IMG/VR virus record: IMGVR_UViG_3300030450_001402
Coordinates: 1-21,868 of that record
DNA: 21,868 nucleotides
Direction: 5' to 3' (one strand)
From: a virus
Made by a program: the position numbers and the translations under genes. The notes beneath the pieces were generated by a model, which ran no database searches, had not been told where the DNA came from, and saw nothing but the letters and a program-made list of their open reading frames with translations. Shown here piece after piece: positions 4,051-17,850 of this stretch (the first letter of the stretch is position 1; every line of letters starts with the position of its first letter).

Positions 4051-4741
4051 GTTCAAAAAAGGCTGGCATTCTGGCTGCTTTAGTGTCAGAAAACTCTGGG
4101 GCTTTGCCCTCATACATTAAGCGATCACTAGCATCTAGCCAAAATTTTTTGTCCAAATATTTATCGTAGGTATTTGTACCTAGAGGTTGAAGAACCCAGT
4201 TAATGGTGGCCTTCCTAAGTTTATCCAAAGAAGGAGAAGGAGAAAGACCCAACTCTGCACATACAAGAGAATTAGCTCCGACATGGATTTGTTCGTCTCT
4301 TGAGATATCTGCCGATACTGTGCGTAAAGCAGCACAGCCATTAAACCGAAAGAAAGGGAGTAGAACAAAGAATATAGCTCTTTCTGCGACAAGTGCTTTA
4401 GTAATGGTATGGTCGGGGTGAGAAATCCATGCATCTCTTAACTTTAACGCCTCCTCTTCTGACTGTGAATCGGCTCCATTAGCTTCTACTATGTAGCCCA
4501 GGGCAAGATCATGTTTAATCTCGTCTTGTACGTTCGATTCAAGGAGCTTCCTAGCAAGTGGTGGTACTTCTTTTTCAAGTCCTTCACGAATAAATTCTCC
4601 AACTGGCAGCTCCATATGACGTATTGCGAGCGCACGTTTGATGGCTTCTTCAGCACCTTCTTTTACCTCTCCTTTAGTGGGTTTAACTGGTGTCCAAGTT
4701 CTTTTACGTTCTAATAATTTTTGATAGGGATGTTTTCTCAT
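4019..4741 (-). CDS. nrdB: Class I ribonucleotide reductase beta (radical-generating) subunit, ferritin-like
   Basis: 240 aa from the ATG at 4741, which overlaps the alpha stop as TAATG; a TTG at 4753 is possible but less likely. It is a diiron/dimanganese ferritin-like helical protein. Numbered from the TTG, there are two ExxH motifs, E78-I-K-H81 and E154-Q-I-H157, and a further ligand E124 in V-A-E-R-A. It is shorter than E. coli NrdB (about 375 aa). The residue four after the first histidine, where E. coli has radical Tyr122, is Leu85; the nearest tyrosine is Tyr87. The subunit would supply the radical for the neighbouring alpha subunit. Cyanopodovirus beta subunits of this kind were long overlooked because the alpha gene was labelled class II. 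The symbol is used in the generic sense. Confidence 0.82.
   Translation of the reverse strand: MRKHPYQKLLERKRTWTPVKPTKGEVKEGAEEAIKRALAIRHMELPVGEFIREGLEKEVPPLARKLLESNVQDEIKHDLALGYIVEANGADSQSEEEALKLRDAWISHPDHTITKALVAERAIFFVLLPFFRFNGCAALRTVSADISRDEQIHVGANSLVCAELGLSPSPSLDKLRKATINWVLQPLGTNTYDKYLDKKFWLDASDRLMYEGKAPEFSDTKAARMPAFFEHDNKNLPQYA
4461..4470 (-). promoter_or_regulatory. Putative phage RNA polymerase promoter core, copy 1
   Basis: Minus strand ATTCACAGTC, context CGATTCACAGTCAGAAGAG. It lies inside the RNR beta gene (encoding part of A-D-S-Q-S-E) and would feed transcription into the portal-scaffold block. It is the last copy in the direction of transcription within the window. Confidence 0.6.
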
Positions 4742-6900: not shown

Positions 6901-7567
6901 CTACTGTTAGTATTCTTGCAAGTCTAGCATTAGTAATTGCAGTAAGGGCTGTGTAACCCTTATCTACAAAAGCTTTTTTAACAGTTTTCCACGAGTAACC
7001 TTCTTTATCAAAGAGAGCTTCGGCTCTTTTAATTCCAATTCCAGGTACTCCAGGATATCCATCGGTTTGATCTCCTGCTAAAGTCTGGATTAAATGCCAT
7101 TTAGCACCTTCCTCTTTACTGACTGTGAATTGTTCGTCAAGATTATATAATTTACCAGGTATCTGTTTCATATCCTTATCAGGAGAAACAATCATATTAC
7201 CCGGATGTTTAGTAGAATAAATACCTAATGCATCATCGGCTTCTAGTTGTGGCATTACAATGACTTCATATTTCTCACGTAATGCTTTGATAACTCGTTT
7301 ATAACCACAAGGTTTCTTACGATTTCTATGTCCTTTATAATCGGGTAGAATCTTTTTTCTAAAATTTATACTATCAGAAAAGAATAATATTATATCAGAG
7401 AATGACCCAAATTTGTCTCTAATTTTGGTAAGTTCTTTAGTTGTGGCTGATAATGCATCACTAAAGTTAGAAGTGACAAGGATAACATCGTCACCAAAGT
7501 CAACTTCAGTCTCCGCTGCAGCGCAGGACTTATATACAATGTAGTCCGCATCAATTAATAATTTCAT
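6803..7567 (-). CDS. 5'-3' exonuclease (T7 gp6-like, FEN family)
   Basis: 254 aa, against about 300 in T7 gp6. Flap-endonuclease family motifs appear in order: L-L-I-D6-A-D8; Y77-K-G-H-R-N-R; E109-A-D111-D112; S-P-D130-K-D132; and G-D166-Q-T-D169-G followed by the G-V-P-G-I-G helix-hairpin-helix. These acidic residues bind the two metals. In T7 the enzyme removes RNA primers and degrades host DNA to nucleotides, which fits the nearby RNR and MazG genes. The ATG overlaps the preceding stop as ATGA. The coding sequence contains one copy of the putative phage promoter motif (7121-7130, encoding part of E-Q-F-T-V-S). Confidence 0.9.
   Translation of the reverse strand: MKLLIDADYIVYKSCAAAETEVDFGDDVILVTSNFSDALSATTKELTKIRDKFGSFSDIILFFSDSINFRKKILPDYKGHRNRKKPCGYKRVIKALREKYEVIVMPQLEADDALGIYSTKHPGNMIVSPDKDMKQIPGKLYNLDEQFTVSKEEGAKWHLIQTLAGDQTDGYPGVPGIGIKRAEALFDKEGYSWKTVKKAFVDKGYTALTAITNARLARILTVDDYDFDKKEPKLWSPSSDYAVNCGTGLKNESN
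7121..7130 (-). promoter_or_regulatory. Putative phage RNA polymerase promoter core, copy 2
   Basis: Minus strand ATTCACAGTC, context CAATTCACAGTCAGTAAAG. It lies inside the exonuclease gene and would transcribe the MazG, RNR and downstream genes. See the finding on the eight-copy motif. Confidence 0.6.
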
Positions 7568-8028
7568 AGGTGGGATTTGTCTAGTATCTCAGGATTAACA
7601 CTGAGTAAATCATTTTTACTTGCTGTTACCATGTAATCTCCTTGACCATTCTGATGATTTGGGTTTAATCTCCACAATTGATCTCTAGAAAATTTCAACA
7701 AAGTAATTTCTTCAGGTTCTACAAGGGTTATAATAAACCATTCATCATCTTTTGTAATATGATTAATAATGAATTGACCATCTTGTTTTATACAAGAAAG
7801 TTTAGCTTGTGTTTTATTTGGAAAATCACCTTTATGATTCCCTACCCTACTTCGATCTCTTTTAATACCAAAGATTTCCTCATAGGATTCTTCATTAACT
7901 CTCCCTTTTGTTGCACTAGCTAACTTATGAAGAGCTTCATTTGTTGAACCATCAAAATGGTGTTGTCTTATTTCTGATTTTGCTTTTTGTAGCAGAAGAT
8001 CAGTGAACTTCTGACCAATCATTTCCAT
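7564..8028 (-). CDS. Hypothetical protein (154 aa) between DNA polymerase and exonuclease
   Basis: Not recognised. Soluble, mixed composition, no membrane segment. The N-terminal third is basic and helical; the middle contains alternating hydrophobic strands (Q-F-I-I-N-H-I, then W-F-I-I-T-L-V, then E-I-T-L-L-K-F). Starts at 8028 or 8022 (M-I-G-Q-K-F) are both possible, overlapping the polymerase end by 23-29 nt. It ends in an ATGA overlap with the exonuclease start, so it is embedded in the replication operon and is probably a replication or nucleic-acid accessory protein by association only. Confidence 0.72.
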   Translation of the reverse strand: MEMIGQKFTDLLLQKAKSEIRQHHFDGSTNEALHKLASATKGRVNEESYEEIFGIKRDRSRVGNHKGDFPNKTQAKLSCIKQDGQFIINHITKDDEWFIITLVEPEEITLLKFSRDQLWRLNPNHQNGQGDYMVTASKNDLLSVNPEILDKSHL

Positions 8029-9262
8029 GCTTTGATTCAGCAGCGATAGGACATCTAAGTTTATAATACTCTCCAGCTTGTACAGCTGTGAGTTCTAGTA
8101 AAAATTTTAAAGTATCTACTTCTTCTGGTTGTACTTCAAATTGTAATTCATCATGAATGAATGCAAGTTGTCTAGCAGTTTTTGGTAAATTCTCATTAGC
8201 TAATACCATCCACCGTTTTGCGATAACCGCTGCCGATCCTTGTAAAAGGTAGTTGAGTGACTTATGTTTGGAGTCCACAAGGATTCTACGTTTGTCAATC
8301 CCGAGGACATAACCCTTCTCACTAGCTTTGTGTACACCTTCCAAGAGTTCTTTAAGACCAGGAATGGCATCGACATATGCCTTGCGAATTTCCTTGCCCT
8401 TTGCTGACGCCTTGTCCTTGGATAACTGTTTGTCATAGCTTACTCCGATTTTGGCATCGCCAGCTCCGTAGAGGAAGGCATAGGTAACTGTTTTGACTTG
8501 AGATCTAGTGATTCCAATTCTATCGGCATTTGTTTGGTGAATGTCTCCGTTGATAAGGATTTTCGCATAGCGTCCTCCATCAAATTTTGCAAGATAATGG
8601 GATAATATTCGTAACTCAATACCGCTAAGGTCAGCACCGCACATAACCATGTTAGGGGATGCTTTAAATAATTTCCTAAAGTTTTCATTTGAGGGTACTT
8701 GGGATAAATTTGGTTTTCGATGGGAACATCTAAATGTAGATGTTGCTACTGAACAATGGTGGTGTATCCTACTAGAGGTCGTAACAAGCTTCTGCCATGC
8801 GTTCACGCCTTCTGATATCATCCCTAACTGCTTGGTCAGATCCAGTAGTTTCAGAAAAGCTAGAGCTGTATCCGAGCCAATGTCTTTTAGTACGGTCTCG
8901 TCTATAACCGCCTTCCCTGAGTTCGTCAGTGATGAAGGCGTCCAACCATAGTGTGTCTGTAAGATCCACGATATATGATCTCTTGATGTTGGGTTAAATT
9001 CTTTGAGTTTAGTTAAAGTTGCTCCTTCAACGTAGCCCGTTCTTTTGTTAGCTCGTTTAGGAGTAAATTCTGATCCTTTGACGAAAGGATGCCTGTTTCG
9101 TAATAGCTGCGTAGTCTCTTCATATTCTCTTCGGAGAGTAGATTCAAGTTCCCGTGCAGCTTGTTCATCAAAATACCATCCATGGATCTCCTGTTGTGTT
9201 AATATTTGTGCTACCTGATGCTCTAACGTGAGCCAATCAGATAAGGGTGGAAGTGGTCGCAT
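8000..9262 (-). CDS. DNA polymerase, family A polymerase domain (T7 gp5 C-terminal part)
   Basis: 420 aa, covering the thumb, palm and fingers of a T7-type polymerase. Motif A is D211-L-S-G-I-E-L-R; the O-helix is R253-S-Q-V-K257-T-V-T-Y261-A-F-L-Y265-G, with tyrosine at the position equivalent to E. coli Pol I 762, as in T7 and many lytic phages; motif C is H370-D371-E372. Between the thumb (L-L-R-N-R) and F-N-P-T-S-R-D-H there are only about 35 residues against nearly 100 in T7, so most of the thioredoxin-binding loop is absent. The exonuclease domain is a separate upstream frame; a TAA lies 9 nt before this ATG in frame, so translation must start here or shift just before it. GC is about 47% at 8821-8880 but 25% at 8101-8160. 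Confidence 0.92.
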   Translation of the reverse strand: MRPLPPLSDWLTLEHQVAQILTQQEIHGWYFDEQAARELESTLRREYEETTQLLRNRHPFVKGSEFTPKRANKRTGYVEGATLTKLKEFNPTSRDHISWILQTHYGWTPSSLTNSGKAVIDETVLKDIGSDTALAFLKLLDLTKQLGMISEGVNAWQKLVTTSSRIHHHCSVATSTFRCSHRKPNLSQVPSNENFRKLFKASPNMVMCGADLSGIELRILSHYLAKFDGGRYAKILINGDIHQTNADRIGITRSQVKTVTYAFLYGAGDAKIGVSYDKQLSKDKASAKGKEIRKAYVDAIPGLKELLEGVHKASEKGYVLGIDKRRILVDSKHKSLNYLLQGSAAVIAKRWMVLANENLPKTARQLAFIHDELQFEVQPEEVDTLKFLLELTAVQAGEYYKLRCPIAAESKHGNDWSEVH

Positions 9263-9807
9263 AATTTCTTAGTAACCATAACATCTTGTATACAATAATC
9301 TTGCATATCCTGACTCCATTCTTTCCAATCTGTATCTTTACCAAAATCTCCTTTATGTAAACCTAAACGATACCCATAAGCTTCAAGAGAATGGGATCCA
9401 TATAATTTAGTTGGCATATCTTTCCATTCATGTCTCTTGTCTATATCATATAAATTAGGATGATATAAGCGAGATAAGAGAAGAGTATCAACGATAACAG
9501 GAGGATAAGTAAAGAAAGGATAGAGCCTTTTAATGAGAGGTAAATCAAACCCAATAATATTATGGCCGACAACAGCATCGGCAATTTCAATACTTGTGAT
9601 ACCGGTTGTGAGGGAACGATTACCCATCGGTAATTCTTTCGCAAGATTTGAATATTTCTCATCGTTAAATGCCTCAGTTAAATCATTGTCGCAATAATGT
9701 AAAGCAATGCAATGGATACGTGATGCATTATTTAGTAAACCATTACTTTCTAGATCGAGTATTATTGTCCCTACTCCAGTGGTAGGTTTTGTCAACAAAC
9801 TCTGCAC
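9223..9807 (-). CDS. DNA polymerase 3'-5' exonuclease domain (T7 gp5 N-terminal part)
   Basis: 194 aa proofreading domain. Exo I is L-D18-L-E20-S-N; Exo II is G-H-N83-I-I-G-F-D88; Exo III is Y171-C-I-Q-D175. The segment I-V-D-T-L-L-L-S-R-L and G-S-H-S-L-E-A-Y-G-Y-R-L-G matches T7 gp5 closely. The chain ends right after V-T-K-K-L, where T7 gp5 continues into the polymerase domain; here the polymerase continues in another frame from an ATG 40 nt before this gene's stop. The two products together would make a T7-type polymerase. The ATG at 9807 is the only one ahead of the Exo I motif. Confidence 0.9.
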   Translation of the reverse strand: MQSLLTKPTTGVGTIILDLESNGLLNNASRIHCIALHYCDNDLTEAFNDEKYSNLAKELPMGNRSLTTGITSIEIADAVVGHNIIGFDLPLIKRLYPFFTYPPVIVDTLLLSRLYHPNLYDIDKRHEWKDMPTKLYGSHSLEAYGYRLGLHKGDFGKDTDWKEWSQDMQDYCIQDVMVTKKLCDHFHPYLIGSR

Positions 9808-9934: not shown

Positions 9935-11471
9935 GTTCGGTAAATCTACAGGTATTTAAATCGTAGGCTAGTTGACATGCTTCCCCAACTTCACCTGAAT
10001 AACGATTTTTAAGGACTCTAAGAGTCGTAAGCTTTCTATCAGTGTTGGCTTGTTGATCGACTTCAAGGGCACATACTGAATCTGATATTTGAGCAATTGA
10101 GTGAGATCCTCTAAGTGAGGACAGTGTAACTCTTCCACCCTCTTCGTGCGAAGTCCTATCATTACTACTTCTCCTTAAATGTGATACTAAAAATAATGAA
10201 ATGCCAGTACGTTCTACCAATGACCTTAATTTTGTCATAGTGGTGTCTATCATTCTACGCTCATCACCTTCAAGACCACTTAATAATATAGATAGGTGAT
10301 CTAAGAATATAACACGACACTCCAATCCACTGGCAAGGTATTCGATCCTATTGTAAATGACATCAGGATCAAAACTGCCGAAGCCATCAAAACAATAAAG
10401 ATTCCAGTTAGCAATACTGGATTCAAAAGCGGATCTGAGTTCTTGCTCACTATGTTCTCCTATATGTAAGTTCTTTCCAACAGCTGTGGACATCAATCCA
10501 AGTGCTGTTCTTCTATTACTTGCTTCAAGTTCCAGGATCCCAACAGACTCCCCTTTTTGGAGTAAGTCAGTTGCAATGTGCCGCATGATTGAGGTCTTTC
10601 CGCTGCCAGATCCTGCAGTAAACGTGACAAGCTCTCCATATCTAATTCCGTGAAGTTTCTTATTAAGTCCTTGGAAGGGGTATTCATGATCAAATGGTGC
10701 TTGTGGTGTAGTAACTAATTCTAATAATGATTTTCCTTCTATGATACCATCAGGTCTATACGTCTTTGCATCCCATATAGCCTTCCTTATTGCTTCAGAA
10801 TCATTTGCTTGTAATGCTTCAGATGGGTCTTTATACTCATCCATCCTAGCAATTTTAACTTTACCTGGTGGTAAGACTTGTGCAGTATCTTCCGCTGCTT
10901 TTCTACCAGGTTCATCTCCATCAAAAAATAAAACTATTTCTTCATATCCTTGAAATAAGGGGATTTGTTTTTGGATATCCTTCTTTGCGCTGGCTGCACC
11001 ATGCGGTAATGAAACCATCGGCCAGCCCGACATAGCCTCATAGCAACTAGCAGCATCTAATTCACCTTCAGTAACAACAATCCGTTTACCAGTAGTAGGG
11101 AACAAATGCTGACCAAATAAAGTGTCAGTGGAAACTCCTTCATAACTAAAATCTTTTCGTTTATTTTTTACTTTGACTCCAGCAAGTACTCCATCGCTTG
11201 TAAAGTATGGAAAGCGTAAAGTAGCTCCATCTCTGTAAATCCTGAAGAACTGGCAAGTTTTTTCAGACAATCCTCTTCTTTTGAGGGCTTCTGCTTCTCC
11301 TTTAAGTTGTACATTGGTAGACATTTTCTGACTGTGAATAAGATTTATACCTTCTGCAGGTGTGTAAGTTTGGCATGAAAAGCAGTAATAGTGACCGTCA
11401 GTATACAAAGAGTTTGCATCTGACGATCCGCAATTTCCGCAAGGTTCATGTCTTACGAATTCCGCTTCCAT
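9882..11471 (-). CDS. DNA primase-helicase (T7 gp4-like)
   Basis: 529 aa against 566 in T7. The ATG at 11471 overlaps the endonuclease stop as TAATG. A CxxC...CxxC zinc finger (C11, C14, C30, C33) is followed by a TOPRIM primase domain (V-V-T-E135-G-E-L-D; F-D184-G-D186-E-P-G) and a RecA-type helicase domain with Walker A G287-S-G-S-G-K-T, Walker B F-L-D391-H-L-S and F-L-V-S-H. The C-terminus ends in D-P-T-T-D-F, an acidic tail with a final Phe, as T7 gp4 uses to contact the polymerase. An internal Met50 (ATG at 11324) just after the zinc finger would give a helicase form without primer synthesis, like T7 gp4B. The enzyme unwinds the fork and makes primers. Confidence 0.93.
   Translation of the reverse strand: MEAEFVRHEPCGNCGSSDANSLYTDGHYYCFSCQTYTPAEGINLIHSQKMSTNVQLKGEAEALKRRGLSEKTCQFFRIYRDGATLRFPYFTSDGVLAGVKVKNKRKDFSYEGVSTDTLFGQHLFPTTGKRIVVTEGELDAASCYEAMSGWPMVSLPHGAASAKKDIQKQIPLFQGYEEIVLFFDGDEPGRKAAEDTAQVLPPGKVKIARMDEYKDPSEALQANDSEAIRKAIWDAKTYRPDGIIEGKSLLELVTTPQAPFDHEYPFQGLNKKLHGIRYGELVTFTAGSGSGKTSIMRHIATDLLQKGESVGILELEASNRRTALGLMSTAVGKNLHIGEHSEQELRSAFESSIANWNLYCFDGFGSFDPDVIYNRIEYLASGLECRVIFLDHLSILLSGLEGDERRMIDTTMTKLRSLVERTGISLFLVSHLRRSSNDRTSHEEGGRVTLSSLRGSHSIAQISDSVCALEVDQQANTDRKLTTLRVLKNRYSGEVGEACQLAYDLNTCRFTEHETQTNSEVKFDPTTDF
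11330..11339 (-). promoter_or_regulatory. Putative phage RNA polymerase promoter core, copy 3
   Basis: Minus strand ATTCACAGTC, context TTATTCACAGTCAGAAAATG. It lies inside the primase-helicase gene and ends 5 bases before the internal ATG at 11324. Initiation just after the motif would give a nearly leaderless message for the short helicase form. Confidence 0.62.
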
Positions 11472-12392: not shown

Positions 12393-12594
12393 CTTTAGAA
12401 CCCTCTTTAGCTGGAGACAAAGCCTTTACTTCACCTTCCAATTTATCATAGAATTCTTGGAGTTGCTCCATTTGAACTTTAACTTGTAATAACTGCTTTT
12501 CCTTAGCCTTAAGTTCGGCAGCCTTTAGTCTTTCTTCAGACACCACTACTATTGTAGGAGGTGAGAAGAAGCTATCAAAAAATGGTGAATACAT
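12385..12594 (-). CDS. Small coiled-coil protein (69 aa)
   Basis: An aromatic N-terminus (Y-S-P-F-F-D-S-F-F-S-P-P) is followed by T-I-V-V-V-S and a long charged helix with heptad-like hydrophobics (residues about 20-58, K/E/L/Q-rich), so a coiled coil is likely. It lies between RNA polymerase and SSB, starting in a TAATG overlap with the polymerase stop. T7 encodes its host RNA polymerase inhibitor gp2 in this interval, but there is no visible similarity, so that role is not claimed. Confidence 0.72.
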   Translation of the reverse strand: MYSPFFDSFFSPPTIVVVSEERLKAAELKAKEKQLLQVKVQMEQLQEFYDKLEGEVKALSPAKEGSKDA

Positions 12595-14975
12595 TAACAG
12601 AAAAAATAAGTTGAATCAATAACCGATTCAGGTTTTAAGTCACCTATAATCGGTGGTTTAGTCTCTGCCCCTATCTGTTGAGCAAAGTCTGTAAGGTAAT
12701 CTTGTTCTGCAAATAAATGCATATAAGTTTCCCTTATTATAGTAGATAGCTCATCCATATCAACAGCTCTAGTCAAGACACTATCATGAATCAAAGCTAT
12801 TGGATGATTGAATCTATCAATACTTAAATGTAGTAAAGAAGCATCTAGACTGTGAATAAGATTAGGCGCAGTAGCTGCTTTATGCCTAGTTAGATCAACA
12901 ATAGGTTTACCATTCTTATCTAATTCATAAGTCTTAGCAGATAATTTACAACTACCTAATAATTGTAAGTTAAATCTTTCTACTTTCCTTTTCATTATAC
13001 GTTGAGTAACTACAAAACCAGAAGGTGTAACCCATTGTAACTTTGTAGACCCACGTTTTAGTATCTTAGCTACCTCAGTCTCTATCCATTTCATCACTGC
13101 CATTGGTCCAGGAACTATGATATTCATAGCATCCCTAACTGCTTGTACAGTAACTGTAAGATCATCTTTATCTATATCTATACCTTTTTCTTTTAGTGCG
13201 TCCCTGATATAGGAACGGTTAGAATAAGGTTTAGCATTGTAGGGAATTGTCATAACGGTTCTTTTGACCGTCTTCCTATCCATTACCTTTTGTATGTGGG
13301 TAGGACAATTAGGTTTGGCAGATTCCGCTACAATCTTGTATGCGTCTTGTGGGCGTTCAGAAGGCAACACATTGACGAGTTGTGCTGTCTTGCGGTCTCT
13401 TGCAAGTCCTGCAAGGATCTGAAGCCCGCTGCATGTTGCATCCGTGGCAACACACAAGCCAGTCGTGTTTCTGGTACGTTTAGTTACTACCGCATAGTAC
13501 TCCTCACAACTAGCAAGGAATTGCCATGGTTCGTCCGCTGCCTCCCAGTCACCAATGTTTCCTATAGGATCAGTGGCTACTCTGGTAATCAACGGTATAT
13601 TATTAGAAGTCCATTCTAAACGCTCCGACATAGTGGATTTATCTAATCCATAGGTCGTTGCAACTTGGAATGATAACCACTTTTCACCGGACTCTGTGAT
13701 GTAAGTCGGGTCAGCACTGACAATAAGTGATTTTCCAAAATCTGTATCTTGCGGAGTAAGAAATGCAGGAATTGGGTAAGCCCTTCCCCTATAATCAAAA
13801 CTCCATGGCACAAAATAACGGTCACGATGTTTAAAACGTTCAACTGCCTCCATAGTCATACGTGTTCTGCATGACTTCTTAAATTCAGCAGCTCTTCTAT
13901 TGTTCACCTCCGCCGCTTCTCTACGATATGATTTCCGTGAGTCCTTGTTCTCAGCAATATCTACTGGTTTAGGTGGTAGAGGATGATCAATGATAGGAAG
14001 AAATTTACCTACACTTATTTGTAATTCCATTAGCTTTTCAGCTACGCTGACTGTGAATGGATTCAATGTGTATGCTACCTTTTGAATCTTATTTAAAAAA
14101 TCCAAAGGTAACTGCTGTTCTCCCTGTATAGGTGTCCACTCGCCATGCCTAACTAATTCATGACCTTTCATTACTTCATTTAATATGTATCCTCCACAAT
14201 TTTCATTAGTCCAATCCCTTGGTGGTACTAGCATTACCCATGCTAACGGACTGAATAATTCAGCAGTTTCCATAACATCATCCTTGATGTCCATGAATTC
14301 GGGAGTGGGTAGTACATATATAGTTGTTTTACGTCCTTCTCTTATCTTAGTTTTAACAAACCATCCACTAGTTTCCATCACACAATCTAATAACCATCCT
14401 CCTAATTTAATCCTTATATCAGTTCCCCATGACTTCCACTCTTTAATTTTATATCTATTCATTAAAGTTGTAATAACTTTTATCTTCTGGTTAGTGCCAC
14501 ATGCTCTATGCCAATAGTTCTCTTTCAATACATTTAATAATCCGGGAACATGTGTTTCATAATGTCTCATATGGCATTCATCTTCTAATGCCTTACCTAT
14601 AGATTCACATACTTTAACTGCTTGATTACAGTTAGGTTTATATCCAAATACTTTATCAAATGTAATCTTACATGCAATTGCCGCTGCTGCTAATGGTTCA
14701 ACATCTTTAAGATAGTATTCTATCTCTTTGAAATGTTTACCATAATGTCCCTTATGAATACTATCATTAGTGTCTTCTATCTTCTTTACTAATTGAGGTA
14801 GTAAAGCATCAATAGAAGAAGCACCATAAATAGTAGCAGAAGCATAAGTTTGGTCTTCTAATTTAATTGTTTGATCATGCAAACGTTTAAGACCTAAACT
14901 AATAGCATCCCTTTCAAGGTTTACCTGTTCCTCTACTTGTGCCGCTGTTGGTTTTGAAGTCATGTAACTCATCAT
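12594..14975 (-). CDS. Single-subunit DNA-dependent RNA polymerase (T7 gp1-like)
   Basis: 793 aa against 883 in T7. Starts at 14975, 14972 or 14963 (M-T-S-K-P-T) are close together. Catalytic motifs: A, D512 in V-A-T-D-A-T-C-S-G-L-Q; B, R567-K-T-V-K571-R-T-V-M-T-I-P-Y579 (T7 Arg627, Lys631, Tyr639); C, H730-D731-S in A-L-I-H-D-S. The C-terminus ends Y-F-F-C, like the aromatic foot of T7 RNAP that reaches the active site. The specificity-loop region (about 655-695) is unlike T7, so a different promoter is expected. It is made from host promoters early and then transcribes the rest of the genome. Two putative promoter motif copies lie inside the gene. GC is about 55% at 13381-13440 but 27-32% near both ends. 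Confidence 0.96.
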   Translation of the reverse strand: MMSYMTSKPTAAQVEEQVNLERDAISLGLKRLHDQTIKLEDQTYASATIYGASSIDALLPQLVKKIEDTNDSIHKGHYGKHFKEIEYYLKDVEPLAAAAIACKITFDKVFGYKPNCNQAVKVCESIGKALEDECHMRHYETHVPGLLNVLKENYWHRACGTNQKIKVITTLMNRYKIKEWKSWGTDIRIKLGGWLLDCVMETSGWFVKTKIREGRKTTIYVLPTPEFMDIKDDVMETAELFSPLAWVMLVPPRDWTNENCGGYILNEVMKGHELVRHGEWTPIQGEQQLPLDFLNKIQKVAYTLNPFTVSVAEKLMELQISVGKFLPIIDHPLPPKPVDIAENKDSRKSYRREAAEVNNRRAAEFKKSCRTRMTMEAVERFKHRDRYFVPWSFDYRGRAYPIPAFLTPQDTDFGKSLIVSADPTYITESGEKWLSFQVATTYGLDKSTMSERLEWTSNNIPLITRVATDPIGNIGDWEAADEPWQFLASCEEYYAVVTKRTRNTTGLCVATDATCSGLQILAGLARDRKTAQLVNVLPSERPQDAYKIVAESAKPNCPTHIQKVMDRKTVKRTVMTIPYNAKPYSNRSYIRDALKEKGIDIDKDDLTVTVQAVRDAMNIIVPGPMAVMKWIETEVAKILKRGSTKLQWVTPSGFVVTQRIMKRKVERFNLQLLGSCKLSAKTYELDKNGKPIVDLTRHKAATAPNLIHSLDASLLHLSIDRFNHPIALIHDSVLTRAVDMDELSTIIRETYMHLFAEQDYLTDFAQQIGAETKPPIIGDLKPESVIDSTYFFC
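12848..12857 (-). promoter_or_regulatory. Putative phage RNA polymerase promoter core, copy 4
   Basis: Minus strand ATTCACAGTC, context TTATTCACAGTCTAGATGC, within the RNA polymerase gene near its 3' end. It is the only coding copy in which the base after GTC is not A. Transcription from here would start shortly before the 69-aa and SSB genes. Confidence 0.55.
14049..14058 (-). promoter_or_regulatory. Putative phage RNA polymerase promoter core, copy 5
   Basis: Minus strand ATTCACAGTC, context CCATTCACAGTCAGCGTAG, within the RNA polymerase gene (encoding part of N-P-F-T-V-S-V). Confidence 0.55.
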
Positions 14976-15102: not shown

Positions 15103-15403
15103 GTAAATACTCCGGGTGCATGTGAGCAAGTTCGTGATGAGTACATACTGTATATTCATTACCTGCATCCATGATTTTCTTTGCTCGTTTCATGGCGGCA
15201 CTGAATAAAGTGTATGTATACTCATTCACTTTACCACTTTCTAAATCCTTTTCCCTGATAATACAAGCAATAGAAGGTGGTATCTCCCATCCTTGCATCT
15301 TCCATTCCATAAAGTCTTCAAAATCTATTGATTCAAATGCTTCATCAGGAGCATTCTTTAGTGCTCTCCATTTGTTAGGATAATAACGTTTCTTTTTCTT
15401 CAT
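15086..15403 (-). CDS. Hypothetical early protein (105 aa)
   Basis: Not recognised. Strongly basic N-terminus (M-K-K-K-K-R-Y-Y), a middle with D-F-M-E-W-K-M-Q-G-W-E-I-P-P, and a C-terminus with T-H-H-E-L-A-H-M-H-P, rich in histidine and acidic residues. The H-H-E-L-A-H string recalls metal-binding HExxH-type sequences but does not fit one exactly, so no enzyme is claimed. The start overlaps the upstream 52-aa gene as ATGA. Confidence 0.68.
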   Translation of the reverse strand: MKKKKRYYPNKWRALKNAPDEAFESIDFEDFMEWKMQGWEIPPSIACIIREKDLESGKVNEYTYTLFSAAMKRAKKIMDAGNEYTVCTHHELAHMHPEYLHDDYD

Positions 15404-15558
15404 CGGATTAATCGTATGTCGTCAATGTAATCATCCATTAAAGCAGCTTCTTCCATAGCCTCATAAGCTAGTTCATAAGCTCCTTCAACGTCATCCTTAT
15501 CATAAGGAGAGTCTAAGATAAAATCTCTCCCTGATTCTAATAGAACTTGGTACTTCAT
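15400..15558 (-). CDS. Small acidic early protein (52 aa)
   Basis: Fills the gap between two other early genes with no spare bases: its ATG shares a base with the upstream stop (TAATG at 15558) and its stop overlaps the downstream start (ATGA at 15400-15403). Sequence M-K-Y-Q-V-L-L-E-S-G, then Y-D-K-D-D-V-E-G-A-Y-E-L-A-Y-E-A-M-E-E-A. Net charge strongly negative. T7-like phages often use small acidic early proteins against host enzymes, but nothing here shows a target. Confidence 0.72.
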   Translation of the reverse strand: MKYQVLLESGRDFILDSPYDKDDVEGAYELAYEAMEEAALMDDYIDDIRLIR

Positions 15559-16551: not shown

Positions 16552-16702
16552 GGTGTTCGGTGTTAGTTGGTCTTTCATGTAGTTCTTCAATTTCGCACGT
16601 CATCACCGGTAACACGTCCTTGATCTTATCACGTAGATAATTTAAGGCGTTTTCAGGTAATAATTTTGTACGTACTTTGACTGTGAATTGATAAGTTTTC
16701 AT
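16529..16702 (-). CDS. Small early protein (57 aa)
   Basis: Starts M-K-T-Y-Q-F-T-V-K-V-R-T-K-L-L-P, an amphipathic strand, followed by a helix (A-L-N-Y-L-R-D-K-I-K-D) and a second strand, so a small alpha/beta fold is likely; the tail is H/E-rich. Codons 5-8 contain a copy of the putative phage promoter motif (16679-16688). Function unknown. Confidence 0.65.
   Translation of the reverse strand: MKTYQFTVKVRTKLLPENALNYLRDKIKDVLPVMTCEIEELHERPTNTEHHGGKDLT
16679..16688 (-). promoter_or_regulatory. Putative phage RNA polymerase promoter core, copy 6
   Basis: Minus strand ATTCACAGTC, context CAATTCACAGTCAAAGTAC. It lies at the start of the 57-aa gene, 25 nt downstream of a hairpin (16713-16736). 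Confidence 0.57.
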
Positions 16703-16745: not shown

Positions 16746-17231
16746 TTAAAATCCTGATGTGAAATGATAGACAAGATTTGAACCCATAATACTAATTTCT
16801 TCATACATCCGAGTCCTTGCAAGTTCTGTTAAATCATAACTATCATCATATGCTGAAGCATCAGCCCATGAAGTGTCCTCAAAGACGGCTCTAGCCGGTC
16901 TATCAGCTAACCACTTAAAGACGTCATGGCTTGAACAAGGGACAACAGTCTCAACAATCTCATAGAGTGCCTCTTGGCAGTTGTCCTCGTCCATTTCATC
17001 TTCTGAATCAAAATAATCCAGTAAGTCCGTGACTAGCTCCTTGATGACATTGTAACGCCAATCATTAGGCAGCTCATTCATGTGTAAATCTCTTACAATT
17101 TCCACATACTCTTCTGGAGAGTCATCTGCTAACCTAATGAAAGAGGTTCCGTCCGTCCTTGAATCTGTGATTAAATGATCGTTGAACTTTAATAGTTCTG
17201 ATCTAATCCCGGTTTCAATGGTTGTGTTCAT
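16746..17231 (-). CDS. Hypothetical acidic early protein (161 aa)
   Basis: The largest gene of the early block. Strongly acidic: D-Y-F-D-S-E-D-E-M-D-E-D-N in the middle, and many D/E elsewhere. Further segments are D-V-F-K-W-L-A-D-R-P-A-R-A and S-Y-D-L-T-E-L-A-R-T-R-M-Y-E-E. No membrane helix. I recognise it only as a type of acidic protein seen in cyanophage early regions; an interaction with a host protein or DNA mimicry is conceivable from charge but not shown. Its ATG lies 14 nt after a putative phage promoter core (17246-17255). Confidence 0.72.
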   Translation of the reverse strand: MNTTIETGIRSELLKFNDHLITDSRTDGTSFIRLADDSPEEYVEIVRDLHMNELPNDWRYNVIKELVTDLLDYFDSEDEMDEDNCQEALYEIVETVVPCSSHDVFKWLADRPARAVFEDTSWADASAYDDSYDLTELARTRMYEEISIMGSNLVYHFTSGF

Positions 17232-17245
17232 AGTAAAAAAGATTT

Positions 17246-17255
17246 GACTGTGAAT
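17246..17255 (-). promoter_or_regulatory. Putative phage RNA polymerase promoter core, copy 7 (intergenic)
   Basis: Minus strand ATTCACAGTC, context TTATTCACAGTCAAATCTT. One of two copies outside any gene. It follows directly on a hairpin with a TTTATT tail (17259-17276) and lies 14 nt before the ATG of the 161-aa gene, the natural place for a promoter. Confidence 0.68.
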
Positions 17256-17820: not shown

Positions 17821-17840
17821 ACTGTCGCTTTGCTGACTGT

Positions 17841-17850
17841 GACTGTGAAA
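17841..17850 (-). promoter_or_regulatory. Putative phage RNA polymerase promoter core, copy 8 (intergenic, variant)
   Basis: Minus strand TTTCACAGTC followed by ACAGTCAG, so CACAGTC occurs here twice in tandem. It is the first copy in transcription order and lies upstream of host promoter P1. Position next to the presumed genome end recalls the left-end T7 promoter phiOL, which also serves replication and packaging. Confidence 0.58.

Follow-up and report, generated by a model that had tools for sequence, protein, structure and literature searches.

The primase-helicase gene of a T7-like cyanopodovirus contains, in the linker between its zinc finger and its helicase part, a copy of a short repeated motif (ATTCACAGTC) followed almost at once by an in-frame ATG. 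This arrangement raises the question whether the gene encodes two proteins, and whether the motif has a part in making the shorter one. Of a virus record 46,790 bases long, the opening 21,868 bases were analyzed here (the window). Its genes are read from the minus strand, in the order terminase, early genes, RNA polymerase (RNAP), SSB, endonuclease, primase-helicase, split DNA polymerase, exonuclease, ribonucleotide reductase and portal. Across the primase-helicase gene, the nearest deposited phage is NATL1A-7, at 72% on the DNA level. The start codon of the gene (ATG, 11471–11469) overlaps the stop codon of the endonuclease gene in the sequence TAATG. On the minus strand, the motif occupies 11339–11330 and is followed by AGAAA (11329–11325) and then by an ATG (11324–11322) in the primase-helicase frame, with the zinc-finger cysteines just upstream. 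This is the arrangement pointed out in the earlier note, and the gap between motif and ATG is 5 nt. The features discussed below are collected in Table 1.

Table 1. Features of the window, in window coordinates.
Feature	Position	Strand	Basis or remark
Motif copy TTTCACAGTC, first of a tandem pair	17841..17850	-	
Motif copy AGTCACAGTC, second of the tandem pair	17835..17844	-	
Motif copy	17246..17255	-	14 nt ahead of the ATG of the Ocr-like gene
Motif copy, early region	16679..16688	-	
Motif copy in RNAP gene (residue ~305)	14049..14058	-	~70 nt past P2; recurrent site in relatives
Motif copy in RNAP gene	12848..12857	-	over the peptide IHSLDAS
Motif copy ATTCACAGTC, linker between zinc finger and helicase part	11330..11339	-	exact match; 96 distinct relatives have CACA[A/G]TC here
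Motif copy in exonuclease gene (residue ~148)	7121..7130	-	shared by 87 distinct relatives, none of which has an in-frame start there
Motif copy in ribonucleotide reductase beta-like gene	4461..4470	-	
P1, T7-type phage RNAP promoter, CGAGTGGACCCCTATATAGGGGGAA	18791..18815	-	just past the terminase gene
P2, T7-type phage RNAP promoter, CGAGTGGACACCTATACAGGGAGAA	14118..14142	-	inside the RNAP gene
T7-like RNA polymerase	12594..14975	-	loop residues 667, 669, 675 and 677 covary with the promoter block
Full-length primase-helicase, 529 aa	9882..11471	-	translation; phmmer to T7 gp4, 3e-89
Primase zinc finger (Cys11, Cys14, Cys30, Cys33)	11373..11441	-	translation; comparison with T7 gp4
Internal ATG (Met50), where a helicase-only 4B-like protein probably starts	11322..11324	-	in frame; start-codon usage; alignment with T7 Met64
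Predicted helicase-only product, 480 aa	9882..11324	-	translation; T7 4B precedent (PMC9198812)

Gene 4 of T7 yields a 63-kDa and a 56-kDa form, the shorter of which lacks the primase and retains the helicase (PMC9198812). Met50 of the window protein aligns with Met64 of T7 gp4, the 4B start. The relatives available for comparison are mostly metagenomic contigs, many of them short, and the counts given here are of distinct sequences irrespective of kinship. An in-frame ATG or GTG lies within 12 nt of CACA[A/G]TC at 96 of 96 distinct primase motif sites, which is the conservation that the earlier note had asked to be checked in relatives. Counted by linker, CACA[A/G]TC is present in 93 of 117 distinct primase linkers, and all 93 have an in-frame start (73 ATG, 20 GTG), located 2, 5, 7 or 10 nt past the motif. 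When any variant of the motif is allowed, 124 of 134 linkers contain such a start within 15 nt (100 ATG, 24 GTG). At other conserved motif sites inside genes, an in-frame start near the motif is found in 0 of 87 cases in the exonuclease gene and in 3 of 38 and 10 of 37 cases at two sites in the RNAP gene. Where the internal-start position encodes valine, the codon is GTG in 20 of 20 cases, compared with 106 of 2272 valine codons (4.7%) elsewhere in the gene, indicating that the position behaves as a start codon. This behavior makes a helicase-only product likely. Judged from sequence comparison, the internal ATG is very probably the real start codon of a T7 4B-like protein, and the primase-helicase gene of this family of marine-cyanobacterial viruses almost always appears to carry such a second start. 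The internally started helicase-only protein proposed in the earlier note thus gains likelihood from start-codon conservation, from the interchange of ATG and GTG, and from the alignment with T7 Met64. The two-product design of T7 4A/4B would extend to common marine cyanopodoviruses, on grounds of start-codon usage beyond homology.

The motif and the internal start are separable, though their coupling is near-total. The start is kept in most relatives without the strict motif, and five sequences (L086, L146, L156, L158 and S-B28) have the start and no motif. Conversely, P-SSP10 and NATL2A-133 have the motif with no start close to it, which means that not every phage would make the short form. 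Starts without motifs, motifs without starts, and a linker that varies in both sequence and length would all be consistent with a methionine kept for the protein alone, with no short product and with the motif present simply because the linker tolerates it. Protein constraint is hard to reconcile, however, with an ATG/GTG interchange in which valine is always GTG, and the homology to T7 Met64 also argues against it. We consider this explanation very unlikely.

How would the short protein be made? The T7 and cyanophage genes are alike in having an in-frame internal start just past the zinc finger, but T7 4B has a strong Shine-Dalgarno sequence (caggaggtaaaccaATG; caggaggt), whereas the internal start in the window has none. 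The cyanophage relatives also differ from T7 in that GTG starts are common and a phage-specific motif lies 2–10 nt upstream. Because the internal start is not preceded by a Shine-Dalgarno sequence, we class it as a variant with 4B-like function, distinct from T7 4B itself. Most genes of this phage likewise do not have a Shine-Dalgarno sequence. We therefore reject the argument that its absence demands a leaderless mRNA: with such genes common here, an internal start of this kind on a long mRNA needs no special transcript. In the mechanism we favor, the gene would give two proteins, full-length from the ATG at 11471 and helicase-only from the ATG at 11324, the latter by internal, Shine-Dalgarno-independent initiation on a long polycistronic mRNA that the phage RNAP would make from promoters P1 and P2. 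The motif ATTCACAGTC would be an independent element, repeated across the early and replication genes and recognized on one strand by a phage-specific factor, with one copy kept in the linker right before the internal start. Taken as a whole, this combination of a two-product gene, an internal translation start and a separate element is probable, with considerable room for doubt. The earlier note had suggested instead that helicase and primase dosage are separated by transcription and not by an internal ribosome site; internal initiation on the long mRNA would suffice without that step.

The motif itself is over-represented. The coding strand of the window contains seven exact copies of ATTCACAGTC and the other strand none. 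With up to one mismatch there are nine copies, again all on the coding strand, compared with 1.5 expected, and none of 100 shuffled sequences reaches nine. The copies inside genes span three reading frames (encoding IHS, FTV and DSQS), indicating a nucleic-acid motif and not a repeated peptide. The product of one gene (16746–17231, minus) matches Ocr-like anti-restriction proteins in PHROG (E = 1e-6). An early gene (15403–15558, minus) encodes a small protein of ~50 residues; in several relatives (L016, L023, L040, L050, L052, L058, L065 and L071) its ATG is preceded at 2–3 nt by the motif, without a Shine-Dalgarno sequence.

Among the first 80 related contigs, the motif occurs 85 times in the forward orientation and never in reverse, and a reversed control gave no matches. 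The primase linker in nearly all of these contigs contains TTCACAGTC or TTCACAATC, with variable flanks, frame and spacing. A given contig nearly always has one type of motif, either AGTC (G) or AATC (A), with mixing very rare and the copies confined to the coding strand. The A-type contigs subdivide further by the next base, A or G, with a within-contig coherence of 0.88 compared with 0.50 expected. Other versions read AATAA, AGTGA or ACTCA, and all versions contain CAC[A/C]NT, mostly followed by C. The copies in the primase and exonuclease genes share the same variant in 57 of 62 contigs, versus 13.7 expected. Cultured phages have cognate versions of their own: CACAATCGA in NATL1A-7, CACACTCATC in P-SSP7, CACATTCA in S-RIP1 and CACCATCA in Syn5 (L172), where the first 21 kb contain 15 copies on the coding strand and none in reverse. 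Several of the Syn5 copies (for example, among those at 716, 1208, 1414 and 2091) directly follow stop codons, and they are distinct from the known Syn5 RNAP promoter. In five near-complete genomes the motif is restricted to the 10–15 kb past P1, and the structural genes are free of it. The motif is a separate, phage-specific element, real and conserved. The copy at 12857–12848 in the window may be a coding coincidence, as it encodes part of a conserved RNAP peptide and its site is found in G-type contigs only.

Is this element a promoter of the phage RNAP? A 25-nt repeat in the window marks the sites P1 and P2. Both have a TATA-like element with a GGG start region, share an upstream block and are linked to the RNAP specificity loop. 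The sequence TATAYAGGGRRA occurs exactly twice in each of five near-complete genomes, and promoter sites in relatives (110 plus, 0 minus) always point along the direction of transcription. In the 7-nt block ahead of the TATA, P1 and P2 of one contig agree at 6.55 of 7 positions, compared with 2.90 of 7 between contigs. RNAP residues 677, 669 and 667 covary with the P2 block, sharing up to 1.42 of 1.96 bits. We take residues 667, 669 and 677 to lie opposite R746, N748 and R756 of the T7 specificity loop, with 675 between them, based on a by-eye alignment at the NLxxLG motif. Covariation with the promoter block is also seen at residues 77, 185 and 217, beside 677, 669, 675 and 667. The pairing of a phage-specific block with single RNAP residues could yield a promoter-recognition code for cyanopodovirus RNAPs.

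These promoters resemble the Syn5 system (ATTGGGCACCCGTAA, two sites) in number and in the placement of one site at the same position in the RNAP gene, but in the window the promoter is TATAxAGGGRRA with a phage-specific block, and ATTCACAGTC is distinct from it. A promoter of the Syn5 type (CACCCGTAA) is absent from the window genome, where TATAxAGGGRRA is the local form. The motif also invites comparison with the class II promoters of T7, which likewise recur on one strand among the early and replication genes and in some cases lie inside a gene (phi4c, gene 4). Unlike these, ATTCACAGTC has no TATA/GGG part of the T7 type, and its covariation with the specificity loop is not clear: the RNAP column that best tracks motif type, 667, shares 0.29 of 1.00 bit. 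As 667 is itself a loop residue, a weak association between motif and RNAP is possible, far below the positive control provided by P2. We rejected the specificity loop as the reader of the motif, as near-identical loops pair with different motif types (for example, L093 and the window). Thus, ATTCACAGTC is probably not the phage RNAP promoter, and two confusable signals, the true RNAP promoters and an abundant phage-specific motif, can be told apart.

These results argue against the proposal in the earlier note that a near-leaderless helicase transcript starts next to the motif, taken here as a start element that the phage RNAP would use in a second mode or with a cofactor. Several observations do fit such initiation. 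In A-type phages a purine nearly always follows the motif, the spacing from motif to ATG is short, and the CAC core of the motif is reminiscent of T7-type promoters. The RNAP is tied to P1 and P2 by covariation of its loop, however, the same motif is retained where P2 blocks differ widely, and motif type is predicted from RNAP sequence with a group cross-validated accuracy of 0.67 against a base of 0.53. The RNAP of Syn5 reportedly uses only two promoters genome-wide, one of them inside the RNAP gene, yet the Syn5 genome carries the many CACCATCA copies described above. A precedent for a second mode is the KP34 RNAP, which recognizes two unrelated promoter classes (PMC6834552). On balance, we regard initiation at the motif as quite unlikely.

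A different way to generate new 5' ends would be cleavage. In this scenario the motif is an RNA processing site at which a phage-specific or redirected endoribonuclease cuts the long early and middle transcripts, leaving a near-leaderless end at the helicase start and handling early and replication mRNA apart from late mRNA. Processing sites are known in phage RNA, such as the RNase III sites of T7 and the GGAG sites of T4 RegB; like the motif, they are marked by sequence and lie in early and middle transcripts, but here the recognized sequence switches from phage to phage. The restriction of the motif to the coding strand of early and replication genes is consistent with processing, as the structural genes on the same P2 transcript do not have it. 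So is the close spacing of starts behind the motif, both at the primase site and, in several relatives, at the gene for the ~50-residue early protein. RNA folding predictions also leave the motif slightly less paired than when its flanks are shuffled (unpaired, 0.561 versus 0.518, p = 0.002). This accessibility and the spacing at the second early gene keep RNA processing, or another route to a 5' end, in play. Against it, many conserved copies lie mid-gene without a start codon, no nuclease candidate was found, and among core and recurrent protein families none follows the motif variant closely. We consider cleavage unlikely.

A broader formulation covers both cutting and initiation. The motif would be a new recognition element in which the TTCACA half stays constant and the 3' half switches between phages, and at which a dedicated phage factor makes RNA 5' ends across the early and replication genes; at the primase gene, a near-leaderless mRNA would set helicase dosage apart from primase. 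This formulation is possible but doubtful. That motif and start are perfectly paired at the primase site does suggest some link that lies outside the explanation we favor.

The one-strand orientation of the motif and the CAC[A/C]NT shared by all versions, with C next in most, would also suit a role in DNA replication, for example as a site for primase on the lagging-strand template. The motif is limited to about one third of the genome, however, and which variant a phage has is not reflected in its primase beyond the residues that the motif encodes. A primase recognition site does not fit this restricted distribution and lack of covariation, and a replication element of any kind is highly improbable. 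We rank internal initiation on the long mRNA first, with the motif unrelated or loosely related to it, followed by RNA cleavage, initiation at the motif, conservation for the protein alone and, last, a replication element.

A search for the reader of the motif, with 34–103 sequences per protein, found none among RNAP, SSB, endonuclease, primase, DNA polymerase parts, exonuclease and recurrent small early proteins. For SSB, endonuclease, primase, the polymerase parts and exonuclease, no column or classifier tracks motif type well; an apparent signal in the exonuclease faded at 103 sequences, leaving mainly residues encoded by the motif. The best family of small early proteins reached a nearest-neighbor accuracy of 0.85 with no decisive column. 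An antisense RNA was rejected as reader, the reverse complement of the motif being essentially absent from related contigs. Once found, the reader would explain how early, replication and late genes are controlled with only two RNAP promoters.

Scans of the window for Rfam families and tRNAs gave no matches. The DNA polymerase is encoded by two overlapping ORFs, an exonuclease ORF (9223–9807, minus) and a polymerase ORF (8000–9262, minus), and is annotated in the same way in P-SSP7 and S-TIP37. The two ends of the 46,790-base record (~45500–46500, and 48–1254 of the window) share long near-identical stretches at slightly different offsets, which suggests a redundant assembly of divergent strains and a true genome size nearer 45.4 kb.
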